Shown here: piece after piece, positions 6,447 to 21,693 of the stretch
Numbering within the stretch: the first letter of the stretch is position 1
Layout of the letters: each line of letters opens with the position of its first letter
Virus record (IMG/VR): IMGVR_UViG_3300010371_000369
Location: 1-22,514 of that record
DNA from: a virus
Length of the DNA stretch: 22,514 nt
Reading direction: 5' to 3' (one strand)
Notes under the pieces: generated by a model
Told to the model about the DNA's origin: nothing
The model's input: only the letters and a program-made list of their open reading frames with translations
The model's database searches: none
Translations under genes and position numbers: made by a program

Positions 6447-7896
6447 GGATCACCTCGCGGATCCGAGCCTCAATCGCGGCTGCGCGCGGATCGCCCTTGG
6501 CGCGCGCCTCCTGCAGCTTCGCCGAGAGCGCGCGGAGCAGGGTCGGCCGGTCGAGCGCCGTTGGGGCGGCCGGCGTCGCCGGCTTGGGCGCGACAGGGGC
6601 CGCGGGCGGGCCCGAGGCGGGCGGTGGCGCGGCTCCGGACGGCGGAGGAGCGGCGGCGGCCGGCCGACCGGCGGCGCCCATGGTCATTACGCCCAGCTGA
6701 TTCTTGAGGGCACTTAGCTTCGACGCACGCGCCTCCGCCGTGTCGGTGGCCGTGGGCAGGTACTGATCGCGGATCTCCTTGACCACCTCGGGGTTCGAGG
6801 CCGCGCGCGGCCCGACCAACTTGGCCGTGAGCTGCGTGGCAGTACGGCCGGCGGCGTCCTCGAACTTCTGCGCGTCCGCGTCGAGCATCGCGCGCGGCAT
6901 GATCTTCTCCGCGATCCCAGGCTGGTAGCCGGCGAGCGTCTCAAAGTCCTTGTTCAACTGGGGAGCCGCCATCGCGCCGCCGATCAGCTGCGACTGCATG
7001 GCCGTGTTCGTGCGGTTCGTAACCGCTTGGTCGAGCTTTTTGGCCGTCTCGATGTGCCGCGAGACCTGGTTATAGAGCGGCTCGACGTACTTGGCGTGTG
7101 CCTCTGCCCGCTTCTCTTGGATCCCCAGGATGGCCTGATGCTGGTCGATCTCCGGCTGCGACAGCCCCACCGCCGCCAGCCGAGCGCGGCCGATGCGCTC
7201 GAGCTGCGCGTAGGCCGCGGCGCCTCGAAGGTCGATGTCCTGTAGCATCTGCTGGCGCGCCTTAAACGCGTCGTCGATCCCCGTCCGCGCCATCACGACG
7301 CGGTCTTTCAGCTCGGCCACCTGCTGCTTCTGCTTTTCCAGGTCCGCCGAAACGATGCCGCCAACGGTGTCGAGCGTCGGCGGCGCGTGCCCGGTCCGCA
7401 CGGCTGCGTTCGTCACCTTGGCGTCGCCGATCGCACCGAGCGCCAGCCCGAACCCGCGGAGCACGTTTCCCCAGGTGTCGCCACTGTGGAAGTAGGAGGC
7501 CGGCGGCTGATTGTCGAGCCGCTGCTGCGCGACGGCGGCGCGCGCTCGGGCATCGTCGATCATCTTCTGCGTCTCGCTATACGCCTTCTCCGTCTCGTTC
7601 TGGAACCCCTGGCCGCGCAGCTCCGCCTGGCGGGCCATGTCGGCCGAGACCGCGCCCTCCCGCTCCTTCTGGGAGCGTTGCTCGCCCGTGGCGGCGATCT
7701 GACCCTGCGCAACCGTGTCCTGCCCTGCCTCGGCCGCCTGCTGCACCGGTGACAGCGCCTTCGTGTCGGTGGTGGTGCCGGCGGTGGTGCTGGTCCCCGT
7801 CGTGTCGGTCTGCTCGTGCTCGGGCGGCATGACGCCGGCCGGGTACGGGAAATCCGCCGCGTCCGCCTGCTGATTCGCGTTCTGCGTGGGATCCAT
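6436..7896 (-). CDS. Candidate ejection (internal virion) protein, coiled coil, 486 aa
   Basis: ATG start overlapping the upstream stop as TGATG; this is chosen over an in-frame start 96 bases upstream that would lie inside the preceding gene. After a Gln/Thr-rich head (MDPTQNANQQADAADFPYPA; TGTSTTAGTTTDT) come long helical, coiled-coil-like stretches (KAYSETQKMIDDARARAAVA; SADLEKQKQQVAELKDRVV; NQVSRHIETAKKLDQAV). A Gly-containing hydrophobic patch, GNVLRGFGLALGAIGDA, sits near residue 140. A Pro/Ala-rich linker near residues 408-448 leads to a short helical tail (LLRALSAKLQEARAKG). This layout suits a protein packed inside the capsid and ejected with DNA. A structural scaffold of the tail channel is the alternative. 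Confidence 0.65.
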   Translation of the reverse strand: MDPTQNANQQADAADFPYPAGVMPPEHEQTDTTGTSTTAGTTTDTKALSPVQQAAEAGQDTVAQGQIAATGEQRSQKEREGAVSADMARQAELRGQGFQNETEKAYSETQKMIDDARARAAVAQQRLDNQPPASYFHSGDTWGNVLRGFGLALGAIGDAKVTNAAVRTGHAPPTLDTVGGIVSADLEKQKQQVAELKDRVVMARTGIDDAFKARQQMLQDIDLRGAAAYAQLERIGRARLAAVGLSQPEIDQHQAILGIQEKRAEAHAKYVEPLYNQVSRHIETAKKLDQAVTNRTNTAMQSQLIGGAMAAPQLNKDFETLAGYQPGIAEKIMPRAMLDADAQKFEDAAGRTATQLTAKLVGPRAASNPEVVKEIRDQYLPTATDTAEARASKLSALKNQLGVMTMGAAGRPAAAAPPPSGAAPPPASGPPAAPVAPKPATPAAPTALDRPTLLRALSAKLQEARAKGDPRAAAIEARIREVIRGG

Positions 7897-8810
7897 CAGG
7901 CGTAGGCCCTTGCGGCCTCGACGGCGGATACCCGCTGGTGTAGGCGCCCCATGCCCCCGAGGATGTCGGAGATCGCGGAGGCGCTGATCCACTTCTTCCC
8001 ATCGGGGCCCGTCGCCACGTCGTGGGTCGGCAGTTCGTCAGCCATGACGCCGAGCCGCTGTCCCGGCGCCTGGCCCGGGGCCTGCGGGTCCTTGTATTTG
8101 AACTCCTTGGGCGCCAGCGAATCAAGGAATTCGTCGGACAGCTTGCCGCCGTCATGCACGTCCGTCTTGAGATCGGGGTCCGAGGCCGCGATCCCCTTGG
8201 CGATGCCGCCGGCGAGCTGCCCCATGGCCGCCTGATTCGCGGCGTTCGCTTGCACCTGCACCTGCTGCTGCCCCATTTGCGCGTTGAACGGCGCCTGGTT
8301 CGCGCTGTTGTAGGAGTTTGCGGCGTTGGCCGCGGATCCGGCCGCCGTGCTCTGGTTCTGCCCGGTGGCCGCCGCCAGCGTCTGGCGGGCCTGCTCCTGC
8401 TCCTGTGCGGCCTGCGCGGCACCGGCGGCCGTGGATGCGATCTGCGTCTGCTGCGCGCTCGACAGGCCGGCACGTAGCGCGTCGCCCGGATTGGTGCCCT
8501 CGAACGCGGCGGCCATGTTGACCGCGTTGCGGGAATTCGCGTCGGTCTGCTGGCGCATCAGGTTCGTCGCTGCGGTGGGCGCCCCGCTGGCCGCCTGGCG
8601 CAGCTGATCGATCGTCTGCTGCTGGTCGGCGTTCGCCGTCCCGAGCTGGCGCCCGGCGGTGGCATAGCCACTGTTCATGTTCCCCGCCGCCTGCATCAGG
8701 TTCCGGTACGCCGGGTTGGCGTCGGTGGCCAGGTTCGGCGGCGGCGCCGATGTGATCCCCAGCTTGTCCGTCACGTACCTGGCGTCGTCCAGCGGGTTCC
8801 ACCAGCTCAC
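7896..8810 (-). CDS. Gln/Ala-rich virion protein with C-terminal S74-type chaperone domain
   Basis: 304 aa. GTG start with AGGGGTG about four bases upstream. Residues 1-30 begin MSWWNPLDDARYVTDKLGI; residues 60-200 are Gln/Ala/Asn-rich and helical. The last 95 residues match the intramolecular chaperone (Peptidase_S74) pattern: ASDPDLKTDV at 209-218, then LAPKEFKYKDPQAPG, RLGVMADELP, GKKWIS and a closing helix GRLHQRVSAVEAARAYA. In characterised S74 proteins a Ser and a Lys five residues later cut the domain off after trimer folding; here S210 and K215 fit. The family is best known on tail fibres and spikes. Here the rest of the chain looks like an ejection protein, and the gene leads the ejection block. 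It could be a short tail appendage instead. Confidence 0.75.
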   Translation of the reverse strand: MSWWNPLDDARYVTDKLGITSAPPPNLATDANPAYRNLMQAAGNMNSGYATAGRQLGTANADQQQTIDQLRQAASGAPTAATNLMRQQTDANSRNAVNMAAAFEGTNPGDALRAGLSSAQQTQIASTAAGAAQAAQEQEQARQTLAAATGQNQSTAAGSAANAANSYNSANQAPFNAQMGQQQVQVQANAANQAAMGQLAGGIAKGIAASDPDLKTDVHDGGKLSDEFLDSLAPKEFKYKDPQAPGQAPGQRLGVMADELPTHDVATGPDGKKWISASAISDILGGMGRLHQRVSAVEAARAYA

Positions 8811-8836: not shown

Positions 8837-8864
8837 TTGACCGTCCACCCCTCGCGCTTACACC
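8837..8864 (+). promoter_or_regulatory. Possible promoter of the plus-strand lipoprotein pair
   Basis: TTGACC at 8837-8842, 16 bases, then TACACC at 8859-8864. The -35 matches the sigma-70 consensus at five of six bases, the -10 at only three. A start about seven bases on would fall at the ATG (8873), implying a leaderless or very short leader. The plus-strand pair is flanked by minus-strand genes, so it needs its own promoter somewhere here. This is a weak call. Confidence 0.3.
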
Positions 8865-8872
8865 CTGGAACC

Positions 8873-9250
8873 ATGCGAGTCACCATTTTTTGCGTCCTGG
8901 CGATGGCAATCGGGTGCGCGGACGGCGCGGTGGTCGACAACGGCGCCACCGGCGGATCGGGTGGCCAGGAAGCCACGGGTGGAGCCGCCGGGCACGTCAT
9001 GGCGATGACCGGCACCGGCGGTGCGACGCCCGTGGACTCCGGCACGGACACGGACCCGCCCGCCGATGCCGCGGCCGATCAGACGGTACGGTGCCCGGAA
9101 ACATTCACGTTCTGCACCAACGATCCGCGTGGCGTGCTGGGGCCCGGAACGTGCGCCAATTTGCAAACCGACATTTACAACTGCGGGGCGTGTTTTCACG
9201 CATGCGGGGGGGCCAACTTGGCCGGCTGCCAGGGCGGCGTTTGCCAGTGA
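8873..9250 (+). CDS. Cys-rich secreted lipoprotein of myxobacterial type (moron)
   Basis: 125 aa, opposite in strand to all virion genes. ATG at 8873 gives the signal MRVTIFCVLAMAIGC, with M-A-I-G-C as lipobox and Cys15 as the lipidation site; the 12-codon longer TTG start would spoil the signal. A Gly/Ala-rich linker follows (NGATGGSGGQEATGGAAG), then an acidic stretch (DSGTDTDPPADAAADQ). The C-terminal domain has eight cysteines in a pattern C..T.TFC...GTC.NLQTDIYNCGAC.HAC....C..GVC, enough for four disulfides. Gly-rich lipoproteins ending in NCGxC...C..GxC are frequent in Myxococcota surface proteomes as I know them. It overlaps the next gene by GTGA. Likely anchored in the host envelope during lysogeny or infection; receptor masking or superinfection exclusion is inference. 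Confidence 0.75.
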   Translation: MRVTIFCVLAMAIGCADGAVVDNGATGGSGGQEATGGAAGHVMAMTGTGGATPVDSGTDTDPPADAAADQTVRCPETFTFCTNDPRGVLGPGTCANLQTDIYNCGACFHACGGANLAGCQGGVCQ

Positions 9251-9465
9251 CCGATGCAGTCGCGGATAAACCGCGAAGGCGGCTGCTCGTGACCGCGTTC
9301 GCTGCCATCGGTCTGATCTGGACATGCTACGGCGGCATTCGCCTGATCGGGTTCCTTTTTGAGTGCCGAGAGATGTGCCTCGGAACGCCTAATCCGCTCA
9401 TTGGCCACAAGGTTCCGCCGGATGACATCGACCGGCTGCTGCAGACACCGATTCCACCTAAATGA
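9247..9465 (+). CDS. Small membrane protein coupled to the lipoprotein
   Basis: 72 aa. GTG start inside the GTGA stop overlap of the lipoprotein gene, so translation is probably coupled. The N-terminus MTDAVADKPRRRLL is basic just before a hydrophobic segment at about residues 14-38 (LVTAFAAIGLIWTCYGGI, IGFLF), giving one membrane pass with the N-terminus likely inside. The external part is short and carries two cysteines (ECREMCLG), then a Pro-rich end (IGHKVPPDDIDRLL...TPIPPK). The family is not recognised. Pairing with an exported lipoprotein on the minority strand suggests a two-part envelope module. Base composition looks lower in GC than the neighbours, which suggests separate origin. 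Confidence 0.6.
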   Translation: MTDAVADKPRRRLLVTAFAAIGLIWTCYGGIRLIGFLFECREMCLGTPNPLIGHKVPPDDIDRLLQTPIPPK

Positions 9466-9510: not shown

Positions 9511-9525
9511 TGTGACAGTGTCACA
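9511..9525. repeat. Perfect inverted repeat between converging genes
   Basis: TGTGACA-G-TGTCACA is a perfect 7-base inverted repeat with a single central base. It lies in the 65-base gap between the end of the plus-strand membrane protein gene and the end of the minus-strand nozzle gene. As RNA it could fold as a 6-base stem with a 3-base loop on either strand, but no T-run follows on either side. A bidirectional terminator is possible from the position; an operator-type dimer site is the alternative. Confidence 0.5.
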
Positions 9526-9530
9526 GCTTG

Positions 9531-12500
9531 CTACTGCCAGCGCTTCGCGGCCGTGAGCTTCTGGCCGGCGTTCTTGAAGCCGATCCAGGCCATCCAGCCA
9601 TCGAGGCGCACGCCGATGTCTCCGCTGGCGAGCAACAGCTGCAGCGAGAACGAGCCGCACTTCTGTCCGCGCGTTCTCGCCTCGTACTGGCCGCGCCCGA
9701 CGGAGACGGGTGAGATTGGGTTCGCGACGGGGGTGTCGCTGTCGTCGAAGTAGACGAACAGGCTCTCTTGCGGCCCCGCGCCCTCGCCGAGTAGGTCGAG
9801 CAGTAGCCGCACGCTGTAGAGGCGCATGTAGCCCCCCATTTCGGCGGGGCGGTACCAGACTGACCGGATCGCGCCCTGGTAGGGACTGGTCACGGCGGCC
9901 GGGTCATCGAGGTTTGCGTCGGTGCCCTCGGTCCACATCGTGCCGTCGGATCGGAACATGACGTCCTGGCTGGCGACGGTGAGCATGGCGATGGGCGTGT
10001 TGGCGACGGCCTGGAAGGTGTCGCGCACCCACAGGTTGTGCAGGCGGTCGAACACGTAGTGGCTGGCGGCCCCGAGGAAGCGGATCTCGTTCTTGGCGTC
10101 GTTGTAGGTTGCCGACAATAGCGTGTCGGGCGTATTTGCGTGCGGCTGCCCCAGGTACTGGTCGATCGGCATCCCAACGAAGTCGATCCCAAGGGAGCCG
10201 TTGAGGCGGTAGATCCCCTGGGAACTGCCGAAGTACACCTCGGATCCGGTCGACACGTAGGGCTGCCCCGACAGAAGGCCGACCTCCGACGATAGGCGCA
10301 CGGGCATGTACTGATTGCCGCCTCCGGTATTGTCGGGGCCGCCCTGGGGGACGTAGTAGATCCCCCGCGGCGACTTGAACAGGACGAGCTTATCGTCACA
10401 GGCGGCCATGCCGGTTAGCGGCCCGAGCTCGTCGGGCATGTCGAACCTGAACGACGATGGGAACTCTGGCGACGCCCCCTGGACGATCGGTTTCGAGTAC
10501 CAGACCTGCGTCGGAAAATCGCGGTCGATTCCCCATAGGCGACCGTCGAACAGAACGACGTGAGAGAACGCTGGGGTCACCGTGGCGGGCTGCTCGCCGA
10601 CATCTCCAGAGCTGAGCGCCGTGATGAGCTGCGTTCCGAGTTGGGCGTCGCTGAGCTCATCGGTGAACGAGATCGGGTTTGCGGGGTTCGATTGCTTCCA
10701 GGCGAGGAAATACACCGACCCGTTGCCGACCGTCCGATAGTATTTCACCGTGCGGACGCGCAGCGGAGACTCGAGCGGCGTCAAGGTGATTTTCACGTCG
10801 AATGCGGTCTGCGTTCCGGTGAGCGCGATCCACGCCGGAATGCTCGGGGTCGATCGCCAAACGTTGCCGGACTCATCGCTCATTTCGACCACGATGAGCG
10901 TGCCGTAGCTACTGTTCTGCGTGAGAGCGCCTCCGGCGCGCGGCGGCCCGAGCGTGGGCTGATACGGAAGTGCGCTGGCGCCGTGGCCCACGACCTGCTG
11001 GCCGTCGACCGTCTGCAGGAGCTGTCCCGCCGGCAAATAGGACGCGGAGGACGCCTTGAGGCCCCGGCCGAGGTTGACGCCGTTCGCCCCATTCAGGTGC
11101 AGGACGTCCCAGCGATCGACCGCGTACTGAAGCGGATTCGCGATCTGAGAAGCGGCTCCGGTGTCAAAGCGGGTGAGCCGGAAGAGGGGAAGCGAAAAGG
11201 CTCCTGCGCCGGTGCGCACCACCTGGACCTGCGCCCCCGGGAAGATAGACCCCGTCTTGTCGCAGCCGGCGGGCGGTCCGGCCTGCAGCGGGATCAGGCG
11301 GGCCTGCGGCTCGGAGAATTGATTGGCCACCGTGACGACGCCGCCGTACTCGAGTGCCATCTCGTAGAACGTGTGCTGAAAATCGGTTCCATTGGTGCCC
11401 TTGCCGCCGGACACGAACGTCGTGCCGGGCAAGCCGATGTGCAGGCCGGCGATCCAGTGCATGGCGTCGGTGCCGGGCTCGCGCCAGCCGTTCGAGTCGA
11501 TGTAGATTCCGGTGGCGTCGGGGATGATCTGCGAGGGCACGCCGACAGAAGCGGAGGTGACCATTTTGGTCGCCCAGATCCCGCCGGTGGCGGTCTGGAA
11601 CACGAGCACGGCGCCCTGCCCGGCGTTCACGGCGACGCCGGCAAATCCGGTAACGGTTACGCCCGCCAGTGATCCGACGTCCGATGTGGTGAGGACGGCA
11701 CCCGCGCTGCCGAACCTGGTCACCTGCTGGGCGTTCGGCGCCGCCGACGCCACCAGCCGTGTACCGGATCCGTCTGGATCTGGCAGGAGCTGCACGCATT
11801 GGGAGCCGACGGCGACGCCGACACCGGTAGACGTCACCGTGAGGACGGACGTCACCTCAAGAGCCTTCACGCGCCCAGCGGCACCCTGGTAGGCGACGGT
11901 GGCGGTGGCGCTCGCGCCGTAGATCACGGCGTCAAGCGACGAGCCCGCGGCCACGTCCGTCGAGATAAGGGTGACGCCAAAGTGGACGCCGTTGCCGCTG
12001 AACGTCTGGCCCCAGAGATTCGCCCCCTCGATCCAGAAGAGCGCGAACGTGCCCGGGGTGCCGGGGAAGTAGACGGCGCGCGGGCGGGTCGCGGTGGTGG
12101 TGAACGGCGTCCCGACGAACGTGAACGGCGTCCCGACGGACTTGTCCTCGCCCACCGTCTTGAAGAGCGCCGTGGCATTGGTGGGCGAGACGGCGGCCGC
12201 CCATGCGATGAGCTGGATGCCGTTGCCTTCGGCCAGCGTCACGAATGGCTGCGGGTTGTCGGTATATCCAACCTGATGGCGCGACCATACCGAAAGCGAC
12301 GCCTGTCCCGATCCTGACGCCGGCGGCGCGCCGCCGAACTGAGGCAGGAACTGCGGCGGGAGCGTCCACCGCGGGGACGCCGTCGGCGAGTAGAGGCGCG
12401 CGCAGGTGTTCGCGTCGGCGGAAGCCTCGGTGAGCGCGAGGATGCCGCCGCCTGGGAGCTCCACGGCGCGCACCACCTGCACGCCGCCGGTGATCTGGAT

Positions 12501-12671
12501 CGTGTCGTTGGGATCTTGCGCCCAGCCGTGGCGGCGGCGCCACTCGCCGGTGCGCTCCATCCGCACGTTGTCGAGCTGCAGGTGGGAGCCGGGCGCGGCG
12601 ACGAGCGGCGCGCTCTTGCCGTCCAGTCCTCCGGTGATCGGCAGGCGCACTCGCGTTTTCTGCAGCGGCAT
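9531..12671 (-). CDS. Tail nozzle / packaged-DNA stabilisation protein (P22 gp10-like type)
   Basis: 1046 aa. ATG start overlapping the upstream stop (TGATG). The N-terminus MPLQKTRVRLPITGGLDGKS then DNVRMERTGEWRRRHGW resembles the opening of podoviral nozzle proteins (PLxxGLD...NVRxxxTG). The chain is beta-rich throughout. Near residues 730-850 it has LWGIDRDFPTQVWYSKP, DDKLVLFKSPRGIYYVPQGG, EVYFGSSQGIYRLNG and FVGMPIDQYLG, propeller-like strands seen in P22 gp10 and T7 gp12-type tail tube proteins. It is longer than P22 gp10 (about 470 aa) and T7 gp12 (about 800 aa). It would close the tail below the adaptor and hold the DNA. It follows the adaptor gene by one short gene, the expected order. 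Confidence 0.8.
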   Translation of the reverse strand: MPLQKTRVRLPITGGLDGKSAPLVAAPGSHLQLDNVRMERTGEWRRRHGWAQDPNDTIQITGGVQVVRAVELPGGGILALTEASADANTCARLYSPTASPRWTLPPQFLPQFGGAPPASGSGQASLSVWSRHQVGYTDNPQPFVTLAEGNGIQLIAWAAAVSPTNATALFKTVGEDKSVGTPFTFVGTPFTTTATRPRAVYFPGTPGTFALFWIEGANLWGQTFSGNGVHFGVTLISTDVAAGSSLDAVIYGASATATVAYQGAAGRVKALEVTSVLTVTSTGVGVAVGSQCVQLLPDPDGSGTRLVASAAPNAQQVTRFGSAGAVLTTSDVGSLAGVTVTGFAGVAVNAGQGAVLVFQTATGGIWATKMVTSASVGVPSQIIPDATGIYIDSNGWREPGTDAMHWIAGLHIGLPGTTFVSGGKGTNGTDFQHTFYEMALEYGGVVTVANQFSEPQARLIPLQAGPPAGCDKTGSIFPGAQVQVVRTGAGAFSLPLFRLTRFDTGAASQIANPLQYAVDRWDVLHLNGANGVNLGRGLKASSASYLPAGQLLQTVDGQQVVGHGASALPYQPTLGPPRAGGALTQNSSYGTLIVVEMSDESGNVWRSTPSIPAWIALTGTQTAFDVKITLTPLESPLRVRTVKYYRTVGNGSVYFLAWKQSNPANPISFTDELSDAQLGTQLITALSSGDVGEQPATVTPAFSHVVLFDGRLWGIDRDFPTQVWYSKPIVQGASPEFPSSFRFDMPDELGPLTGMAACDDKLVLFKSPRGIYYVPQGGPDNTGGGNQYMPVRLSSEVGLLSGQPYVSTGSEVYFGSSQGIYRLNGSLGIDFVGMPIDQYLGQPHANTPDTLLSATYNDAKNEIRFLGAASHYVFDRLHNLWVRDTFQAVANTPIAMLTVASQDVMFRSDGTMWTEGTDANLDDPAAVTSPYQGAIRSVWYRPAEMGGYMRLYSVRLLLDLLGEGAGPQESLFVYFDDSDTPVANPISPVSVGRGQYEARTRGQKCGSFSLQLLLASGDIGVRLDGWMAWIGFKNAGQKLTAAKRWQ

Positions 12672-14531: not shown

Positions 14532-15977
14532 TTACGCGTGCTGGATGACCGCGTTCTTGACGGGGGCGTTGCAGCCGAACGCGCCGTAGTAGCCGACGCG
14601 GCACTCGATTCCGTCGTCCGCACTCTGGCGCAGGATCTTGTTGCCGTCGGCCGTGATGAAGTCGGGGATCTTGGTGGTCCCGGCGCCGTACATGCGCAGC
14701 GTGTCCATCTGGAGCATCCAGCTGAACTGCGACTGGCAGTAGAGGTCGGGGAAGATCTCCACCTCGCCCTTCGAGGTCTCGAGCGCGACGCCCTTGAAGC
14801 CGATGCCGTACGGCCCCACGATCTCGATCGGCCGGCGGCGCGCCTGCCCATTGAGCAACAGGTTTCCGTACCTGGTCGGGTTCATGAAGATGGTCCCAGC
14901 CGTCCCGCCGAACCGGATGCGCTCGACGCTGGCCTTGATGATCGCTTCCTCCTCCGACATGTTGCGGGCGTCGAAGTACACGAACGACAGGCGGCTGTCC
15001 ATCGACCGGTCGTTGCCGAAAAAGTTCTCACCGGGGGTCGGCGCCGTGAAGGCGTTGTTGATGATGTTGCCCCAGGCCGCGAGACCCTGAATGGCGGTCG
15101 GAACCGGATTGGCCGCGTTGTTGCGGTCGCCAGAGGCGAAGATGTAATCGTTCACCGCGATGCCGGTGACGGTGTTCAAGTTCGCGTTGACGGTCAGCGT
15201 CCCCACCAGGGTGTTTGAGCTCGAGAATGTGAAATTGACCGACGTGACCGTCAGGACCGCACCGGCGTTTCGGAGCGCGCCCGAGTTTTCGAACTGAGCG
15301 AACTGGATGTCCTGGCCCTGCTCGTACAGCACGACGTCTTCGGGCGTCTTGAGGGTGATCACGGCGGCGGCCAGGTTCGTCGACGGGTCGATCTGGCCGA
15401 TCTGGCCGTAGCCGGCGCGGTAGATCTTCGTGCTGAACGAGTGCATCGTGGCGTCCAGCGCGCCGTCGATCTGGCTCACGAACTTGTCGTAGAAGCTCCC
15501 CTGCTTGTCGCCGGCGGTGGCCAGCAACAGACCGTCGATGGTCGACCGGCCGTAGTCCTTCATCCACGTCGCCTGCCACTGCTTCACCTTGGTGAAGCCG
15601 TACGTGGTGTCTTCGGACTTGGCGGCGGCGACCGAATACGTCGCCGACCTGGCCGGCGAGTTGCCGACGCGGTTCGCCCACACCGGGTTGGAGCCGCTCC
15701 ATGAGAGCTTGCGCACCATCGCGGCCAGGGCGCCCTTGCTCCATCCCACTTCGCCGAGGAAGTCGTCGTCGTAACGACGCTTGAGGGCCGTGGTCAGGTT
15801 GGCGAAGCTACCGCCCGTGCTCGCCAGAACGCGGGAGCCGAACAGCGCACCGCAAAGCGAATCGAGCGCGGCGCACCCGATCAGAAGCAGCGCGATGTGC
15901 TCGGCAATCGGCCCGGGAACGAACAGCGCACACGCGACAACGAAGGCCGCGACAACGAACAGCAACGCTCGACGCAT
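14532..15977 (-). CDS. Major capsid protein with hydrophobic N-terminal extension
   Basis: 481 aa. ATG with GAGGTG five bases upstream fixes the start; no ATG, GTG or TTG lies in frame between codon 5 and the region where the capsid core begins. From about residue 55 it matches a phage capsid family I know by pattern (HK97-type fold): FANLTTALKRRYDDDF, PARSATYSVAAAKSED, FTKVKQWQATWMKDYGRSTIDG, SQIDGALDATMHSFS, KIYRAGYGQIGQID. Residues 1-52 are extra: two hydrophobic stretches (ALLFVVAAFVVACALFV; HIALLLIGCAALDSLCGALF) ending SRVLA-STGG, where V-L-A could be a signal-peptidase site. The promoter-like element at 16081-16110 and a leader of about 100 bases precede it. Function as the shell subunit is well supported; the role of the extension is unknown. 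Confidence 0.85.
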   Translation of the reverse strand: MRRALLFVVAAFVVACALFVPGPIAEHIALLLIGCAALDSLCGALFGSRVLASTGGSFANLTTALKRRYDDDFLGEVGWSKGALAAMVRKLSWSGSNPVWANRVGNSPARSATYSVAAAKSEDTTYGFTKVKQWQATWMKDYGRSTIDGLLLATAGDKQGSFYDKFVSQIDGALDATMHSFSTKIYRAGYGQIGQIDPSTNLAAAVITLKTPEDVVLYEQGQDIQFAQFENSGALRNAGAVLTVTSVNFTFSSSNTLVGTLTVNANLNTVTGIAVNDYIFASGDRNNAANPVPTAIQGLAAWGNIINNAFTAPTPGENFFGNDRSMDSRLSFVYFDARNMSEEEAIIKASVERIRFGGTAGTIFMNPTRYGNLLLNGQARRRPIEIVGPYGIGFKGVALETSKGEVEIFPDLYCQSQFSWMLQMDTLRMYGAGTTKIPDFITADGNKILRQSADDGIECRVGYYGAFGCNAPVKNAVIQHA

Positions 15978-16080
15978 CGAAACACCTCACGAGTTGGGTT
16001 GTGAAAACCCGGCCTCGAGCGCTTGAGGTGTTTCGTCTTTGGTGTTGCGTCGTGGGGCGCTCTACCCCGGTGACAATCTG
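15978..16080 (-). promoter_or_regulatory. Structured leader of the major capsid gene
   Basis: Non-coding stretch from the promoter-like element to the capsid ATG. It holds GCGCCCCACGACGCAAC at 16044-16060, nearly shared with the portal leader; GACGAAAC at 16030-16037; an imperfect palindrome CCTCAAGC/GCTCGAGG at 16013-16028; a small hairpin GGGTT-TTCAC-AACCC at 15996-16010; and the GAGGTG ribosome site. No T-run follows a stem, so a terminator is not convincing. It may stabilise or control the capsid mRNA. Confidence 0.4.
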
Positions 16081-16110
16081 CGCCTACTCACGTTCGTTTT
16101 CGGCGCGCAA
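16081..16110 (-). promoter_or_regulatory. Promoter-like element B (capsid)
   Basis: On the minus strand TTGCGC, 13 bases, then GTGAGTAGGCG, followed by CAGATT. It matches element C over GTGRGTAGGCGCAGATT and element A over TTGCGCGC and GTGRGTAGGCG. It begins nine bases after the stop of the scaffold-like gene and lies about 100 bases before the capsid ATG. A dedicated promoter for the most abundant virion protein is plausible. If TAGGCG is the -10, the spacer is 18 bases, the same as in the other copies. Confidence 0.55.
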
Positions 16111-20925: not shown

Positions 20926-21238
20926 GTCCCAGGATCAGCGACTGTCGCGCCAATAGCCGCTGCATCGCGTAGTCGTCGCGTCGAGCCCGCGCAACCTCAC
21001 GCAGATCGACGCGGGACACCTCCGGCGGCGCCGGCACGGACTGCTCAGCTGGCGGCGGGGGAAGCTTGCCGCCGTTGGACTCCCACTCCTTGTGCTTCTT
21101 CTCGAGCTCCTTGATGGCCGCCAGCATCCGGAACTTGTCCTCCTCGGGCAGCGCCTTGAACTCTCGGATCACGTCAGCCGCCGGCACGCCCATGCCGCTC
21201 GCATAGGTCTCCAGCGCCTCCCGGATCGCCCTTAACAC
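20897..21238 (-). CDS. Hypothetical 113-aa protein next to the large terminase
   Basis: GTG start overlapping the acetyltransferase stop by seven bases, with GGGAG nine bases upstream; a longer start 108 bases earlier lies inside the acetyltransferase gene and is less likely. Helical (VLRAIREALETYASGMGVPA; EEDKFRMLAAIKELEKKHKE), then a Pro-rich linker (KLPPPPAEQSVPAPP) and a basic helix (RVDLREVARARRDDYAMQRL). Helical, with a basic tail and directly before terL, it could be a DNA-binding packaging partner. The 129-aa protein upstream is the better small-terminase candidate. Confidence 0.65.
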   Translation of the reverse strand: MLRAIREALETYASGMGVPAADVIREFKALPEEDKFRMLAAIKELEKKHKEWESNGGKLPPPPAEQSVPAPPEVSRVDLREVARARRDDYAMQRLLARQSLILGRDGRPIRRD

Positions 21239-21693
21239 GCGGCACGCTCCCACTTCACCCCGCTCCGCTCGCACCAGCGCTGCCAGCTCGGCGTGGGCAT
21301 CATCGCTATCACCAGCCGGGCGCCACGGCCTCGACTGTCGACGCACCGATTCGTCGCGATCCTGTCGGTAGAGTCCGCGAGTATGATCGCGCCGAGCAGC
21401 CGCATTCCGATGCCTTCGCCGCGAAACCCGCGCTTAACGTAGAGCATCGCCACGCCGGTCGGAGCGAGCACTACGAAGCCGAGCAGTACGCCGCTCGACT
21501 CGGCCACCAGCGCTTGGCCGTCGCGCATCCAGCGGTCGACCATGGGACCGTGCATCATCTTCCATTCGCCCCAGGGGATGCTGTTGCGACGAGGCCATCG
21601 CACCTTGACGGTCGTCTCGAAAACGAACTGGTAGTCTGTCTCCCGCATGGGGCGTATCTCGACCGGAAGCTCCGACTCTGAGACTGCGGTCAC
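21232..21693 (-). CDS. GNAT-family N-acetyltransferase
   Basis: 153 aa. GTG start in a GTGA overlap with the previous stop. The N-terminus VEIRPMRETDYQFVFETTV is the usual first strand and helix of GNAT enzymes. ALVAESSGVLLGFVVLAP gives strands 2-4, and YVKRGFRGEGIGMRLLGAI (about 85-103) is motif A, where R-G-E-G-I-G at 91-96 should bind the acetyl-CoA pyrophosphate. Substrate unknown. GNAT proteins encoded in phage packaging or virion modules are known but mostly uncharacterised. It sits inside the packaging operon between the likely small and large terminase genes. It could acetylate a host or virion protein, or a small molecule such as an antibiotic. Confidence 0.8.
   Translation of the reverse strand: MTAVSESELPVEIRPMRETDYQFVFETTVKVRWPRRNSIPWGEWKMMHGPMVDRWMRDGQALVAESSGVLLGFVVLAPTGVAMLYVKRGFRGEGIGMRLLGAIILADSTDRIATNRCVDSRGRGARLVIAMMPTPSWQRWCERSGVKWERAAC

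Follow-up and report, generated by a model that had tools for sequence, protein, structure and literature searches.

A plus-strand lipoprotein gene with a host-type cysteine-rich tip: a candidate conversion gene in a probable Myxococcota phage

Why should a phage that keeps its packaging, capsid and tail genes on one strand carry a small lipoprotein gene on the other? The question arises from the viral-contig record IMGVR_UViG_3300010371_000369, analyzed here over 22,514 nt (the window, to which coordinates refer unless stated otherwise). Its minus strand encodes, among other products, a terminase (phrog_2, E 8e-31), a capsid protein (NF033394, E 3e-7) and a portal-like protein. A first-pass annotation had singled out a lipoprotein gene and a following membrane protein gene as the only pair on the plus strand. 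Its coordinates were right, and all other convincing genes of the window do lie on the minus strand (Table 1).

Table 1 Features of the lipoprotein locus and its surroundings in the window
Feature	Position	Strand	Basis or remark
Conserved upstream region: TTGACC (8837-8842), 16 nt, TACACC (8859-8864), 8 nt, ATG	8837..8872	+	
Lipoprotein gene (ORF 1, protein P0001), 125 aa	8873..9250	+	Sequence, codon usage, GC by codon position
Signal peptide MRVTIFCVLAMAIG, 14 residues	8873..8914	+	Sequence; same signal in P0003 of G001
Lipid-bearing Cys15 codon (predicted)	8915-8917	+	Cleavage between MRVTIFCVLAMAIG and C
Gly/Thr/Ala-rich stalk, predicted disordered, pLDDT about 50	8918..9091	+	
Tip: one Stig1/MXAN_6577-like Cys-rich repeat, eight Cys (C74-C124)	9092..9244	+	Host-built profile
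ORF 2, 72-aa predicted single-pass membrane protein	9247..9465	+	GTGA overlap with ORF 1
304-aa protein, S74-like C-terminal chaperone domain (weak match)	7896..8810	-	Flanks the locus on one side
1046-aa virion structural protein ("nozzle" in the first-pass annotation)	9531..12671	-	phrog_3287, E 0.0039; flanks the locus on the other side
Capsid gene	14532-15977	-	

The lipoprotein gene, ORF 1, has the parts originally ascribed to it, i.e., a lipoprotein signal, a stalk and eight C-terminal cysteines. GC content at codon positions 1/2/3 is 0.63/0.62/0.79, and by codon usage ORF 1 is the best of six frames (+28.9 bits). Compared with the related phage G001 described below, substitutions at the three codon positions number 10/12/23. 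Together with homologues of the Cys-rich part, these data show that the coding of ORF 1 is real. The lipobox of the window copy, A-I-G-C with Ala at -3, is imperfect relative to the pattern [LVI][ASTVI][GAS]C, and that of the G001 copy, L-V-G-C, is canonical. The residue at +2 is Ala, not Asp. The tip cysteines (positions 74, 81, 94, 104, 107, 111, 119 and 124) are packed into 51 residues, with a 12-residue loop between the second and the third. This layout is what one would predict for an outer-membrane lipoprotein that carries a small, disulfide-rich binding domain on a flexible stalk.

The tip had been likened to Cys-rich domains of myxobacterial surface lipoproteins, and our searches bear this out. 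Library models matched P0001 below their cut-offs: Pfam Stig1 (PF04885) gave E 0.022 and 15.7 bits against a cut-off of 24.1 bits, and NCBIfam NF041328 (MXAN_6577-like protein) E 0.0084 and 16 bits against 100. A profile built from 165 repeats, real host sequences only and P0001 left out, scored P0001 at 34.3 bits (E 2.7e-10) with all eight cysteines aligned, and the best of 200 shuffled P0001 versions reached E about 5. All eight cysteines are invariant in the alignment with the host repeats, some of which also have longer loops between Cys 2 and Cys 3. A whole-genome scan for the tip returned 15 loci, 14 in Myxococcota and one in a Pedosphaera assembly; the alignment used for it included four hand-written consensus-like rows, which widen the pattern and are not data, and matches were confirmed against P0001 alone. 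The Stig1 model itself exceeded its cut-off in 46 of 96 Myxococcota genomes, in some of them dozens of times, and in none of 14 controls. Among the host carriers readable from their start, 13 of 16 have a lipoprotein-type signal. With the host repeats as alignment, structure prediction gave a pLDDT of 75-91 for the tip and low confidence for the remainder, as for a disordered stalk. Solved structures related to the tip were found neither by sequence nor by fold (best Foldseek E 5), the TraA Cys-rich repeat TIGR04201 was absent among the NCBIfam matches of P0001 at E up to 1, and MXAN_6577 was not named in the literature searched. Judged by these sequence comparisons, P0001 combines a phage anchor with a single repeat of the kind found in host lipoproteins.

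A terminase search gave two related contigs, one of them G001 (IMGVR_UViG_3300010397_000068), a circular record of 35,823 bases whose ends carry a direct repeat of 123 bases. G001 is syntenic with the window, with 88% identity in the capsid protein, 83% in the terminase and 66-68% in the structural protein. Its counterpart of P0001 in place and strand is P0003, a 170-aa lipoprotein (L006:8659-9171 in G001). The first approximately 45 residues of both proteins are 62% identical, and their C-terminal parts have nothing in common. The first half of the stalk is shared, and homology breaks after position 9021; at the DNA level, the similarity covers the upstream region and the signal through 9021, is lost, and returns at 9527, where the neighbouring gene ends. 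This gap between 9021 and 9527 identifies the tip and the second gene as the exchanged part. The P0003 tip matched no family, and a single-sequence structure model of it was poor (pLDDT 42). Weak genome matches of the P0003 tip were judged to be chance. Searches with the nozzle, portal, terminase, capsid protein and upstream DNA yielded only G001 and a 6.9-kb fragment lacking the region, and no relatives were found among isolate phages. Only two genomes, the window and G001, carry the module.

The second gene, ORF 2, fits its first description, as it starts at a GTG within the ORF 1 stop and encodes a 72-aa protein with one hydrophobic segment (residues 13-31, best 19-residue Kyte-Doolittle mean 1.84). 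The protein is predicted to be N-in, with two cysteines past the membrane segment. ORF 2 is also the best of six frames, but by +6.8 bits only, and its coding support is weaker than that of ORF 1. We found no homologue in viral contigs and no convincing one anywhere searched. Three weak matches (E 0.003-0.006) in 189 Myxococcota genomes lay mainly over the hydrophobic segment and were rejected as chance. The proposal that lipoprotein and membrane protein form a conserved unit failed when we checked whether the pair always occurs together: G001, the sole syntenic relative with the region, retains the lipoprotein's upstream region, signal and stalk but has another tip and no plus-strand membrane gene downstream. 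We infer that the 72-aa protein is an accessory orphan acquired together with the window tip and not a core part. A perfect palindrome, TGTGACA-G-TGTCACA, lies at 9511-9525 between the converging ends of ORF 2 and the structural gene; it was not seen at the corresponding place in G001 and is a possible operator or end signal.

More distant relatives, with about 25% identity, sit in Myxococcota genome assemblies. In two of them, L058 and L060, the genes flanking the locus overlap or abut with nothing inserted between (end/GTG of the flanking genes at 10177/10172 in L058 and 3717/3708 in L060), so the simplest reading is that the lineage leading to the window and G001 gained the module. It has the attributes that define a moron, i.e., it is inserted between genes adjacent in relatives and has putative expression signals of its own in the conserved upstream region. 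From the tip domain and these relatives, the host is probably a member of the Myxococcota. The lineage is probably temperate, because G001 encodes a tyrosine-type integrase (PF00589, E 8e-14; phrog_1, E 2e-27), a RusA-like resolvase and an Mgm101/Rad52-type protein; the window is a fragment without the integrase. G001 also encodes, at L005:4006-5772 (minus strand), a 588-aa protein with a DUF6745 domain (PF20530, E 3e-44).

Upstream of the lipoprotein gene, both phages have TTGAC(C/G)-N16-TACACC followed by eight bases and the ATG, with no Shine-Dalgarno sequence in either. In the window and in G001 alike, the motif TTGAC-N16/17-TACAC has a single match, the one before the lipoprotein gene. 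A 41-nt block from 8854 into the gene is identical to G001 at no fewer than 39 of 41 positions, where aligned windows average 31 of 41; some 30 further clusters, most of them within structural genes, are as conserved. The phage seldom uses the conserved codons ATT (9% of its Ile codons) and TTT (15% of its Phe codons), so the constraint probably acts partly on DNA or RNA. A strict sigma-70 scan did not call the region as a promoter. From its layout we consider it probably the promoter of a leaderless transcript.

Further features lie among the capsid and packaging genes. Upstream of the capsid gene, three phages with 88% identity in the capsid protein share a leader of about 110 nt (15978-16085, minus strand) at 98% identity. 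It is predicted to form a long stem in which the ribosome-binding site just before the ATG is buried (-49.6 kcal/mol, z -3.1) and matched no Rfam family; from this model, translational control of the capsid gene is possible. The capsid ORF itself starts with about 45 hydrophobic residues (MRRALLFVVAAFVVACALFVPG..., 15840-15977, minus strand), which is unusual for a capsid protein; the stretch is conserved in G001 as well as L003, and the distant homologues inspected lack it. Among the packaging genes, a GNAT-like acetyltransferase, recognized by inspection (21232-21693, minus strand), is 73% identical in G001.

What, then, might the lipoprotein do? Its orientation against the late operon and its own start region fit a conversion gene expressed from a prophage. 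We regard the locus, at slightly less than an even chance, as a lysogenic-conversion gene, a moron, of a temperate short-tailed Myxococcota phage, one in which the anchor stays fixed and the tip can be exchanged. From its own promoter region, opposite to the late genes, the prophage would express a protein that is exported, lipidated and, given Ala and not Asp at +2, probably anchored in the outer membrane. The disulfide-bonded tip, which the stalk would present either to the periplasm or to the exterior, might bind an envelope component and change the lysogen surface. Such a change could block adsorption or DNA entry of competing phages, and a new target would prompt an exchange of tips. Small phage lipoproteins encoded beside receptor-binding genes do exclude superinfection, e.g., T5 Llp, which jams FhuA by binding it on the periplasmic side, with Cor probably acting alike (PMC9586334). 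Ltp, the lipoprotein that TP-J34 makes as a prophage, blocks DNA injection (PMC3952083). By analogy with these three proteins, an envelope or receptor modification that excludes other phages is the most plausible function, though still somewhat less likely than not. We favor superinfection exclusion since tip exchange on a constant anchor is expected if the target varies. A place next to the receptor-binding protein gene would be expected of an Llp/Cor-type lipoprotein; the neighbours here are a structural protein gene and the gene of the S74-domain protein. The domain had been described as unlike Llp or Cor, and indeed neither P0001 nor P0003 showed homology to known exclusion proteins or matched an exclusion family in PHROGs. 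Searches for defence-system membership gave no matches.

The same conversion gene might serve the host without excluding phages. As a mimic of Cys-rich surface lipoproteins of the host, the protein would then alter how the lysogen adheres, preys or interacts with other cells, as morons of the lambda type change their hosts. A temperate lineage and a tip from a large host family borne by lipoproteins speak for this; the family, however, has no established transferable function, and the G001 tip is unrelated to it or to any other family. We consider this reading rather unlikely, if still one to be reckoned with. Phage exclusion as the preferred function also has to be weighed against the possibility that the locus is mosaic cargo, i.e., host DNA captured recently and kept without a selected function. 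That the module has few members and that the coding signal of ORF 2 is weak would suit such cargo. Yet the upstream region and signal were conserved while the tip was exchanged, and the frame was kept in both phages with substitutions concentrated at third codon positions, which makes neutral carriage improbable.

The modular build with a variable C terminus on a probable myxobacterial mobile element also recalls SitA, a polymorphic lipoprotein toxin of outer membrane exchange, for which the 72-aa protein would be the immunity partner. SitAI loci are often found on mobile DNA, but sitA and sitI always occur together, and SitA has an escort domain of about 375 aa and a nuclease (PMC8546572). 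With 125 and 170 aa, the phage proteins have no such escort domain and no nuclease family match, and P0003 has no downstream plus-strand partner; a SitA-like role is therefore very unlikely. Adjacency of a lipoprotein and a single-pass membrane protein could further indicate a lysis pair of an outer-membrane lipoprotein and an inner-membrane spanin. The C-terminal part of the 72-aa protein, however, comprises only about 35 residues with a Pro-rich end and, by inspection, no evident coiled coil, the membrane partner is missing in G001, and the pair lies on the strand opposite to the late genes. G001 moreover has another lipoprotein candidate in its late region (L005:15603-16001, minus strand, lipobox SSC), possibly a lysis protein itself. 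We regard a lysis function as extremely improbable.

Exclusion of other phages by the lysogen might in one variant extend beyond it. Myxobacteria exchange outer-membrane lipoproteins (PMC3325183), so a phage lipoprotein could, speculatively and in principle, reach neighbouring cells. The locus would then be a display cassette with swapped tips, and lipoprotein exchange would pass a lysogen trait, e.g., phage exclusion, to uninfected kin, an idea to which we assign a very slight chance.

Morons encoding lipoproteins have been described from phages of enterobacteria and streptococci, and conversion genes of Myxococcota phages are little known. If true, a fixed anchor and stalk with exchangeable tips would explain how such phages retune an envelope modification. 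With a host-type repeat as one of these tips, it would also provide a phage-side handle on the very large family of myxobacterial Cys-rich repeats.

Among known systems, T5 Llp and T1/phi80 Cor resemble P0001 as small phage lipoproteins with disulfide potential, encoded by an extra gene beside tail or structural genes. In contrast to them, P0001, unrelated by PHROGs search, is longer, has a Gly-rich stalk and an exchangeable tip and is encoded on the opposite strand. Ltp of Streptococcus thermophilus phage TP-J34 is likewise a temperate-phage lipoprotein expressible from the prophage, but has a Gram-positive host, a lysogeny-module location and an unrelated domain. Lambda bor, which encodes a lipoprotein, and lom are also morons located within or close to the late region, in a different host group. 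SitA toxins share the lipoprotein N terminus, the variable C terminus and the mobile DNA, whereas P0001 and P0003 lack the escort domain, nuclease and constant immunity gene. The MXAN_6577-like/Stig1-like proteins of Myxococcota carry the same eight-Cys repeat, C-x(n)-LQTD-x(2)-NCGAC-x(3)-C, often on lipoproteins; they have several repeats, whereas P0001 has one, on a phage-specific anchor, and scores below the cut-offs of both library models.
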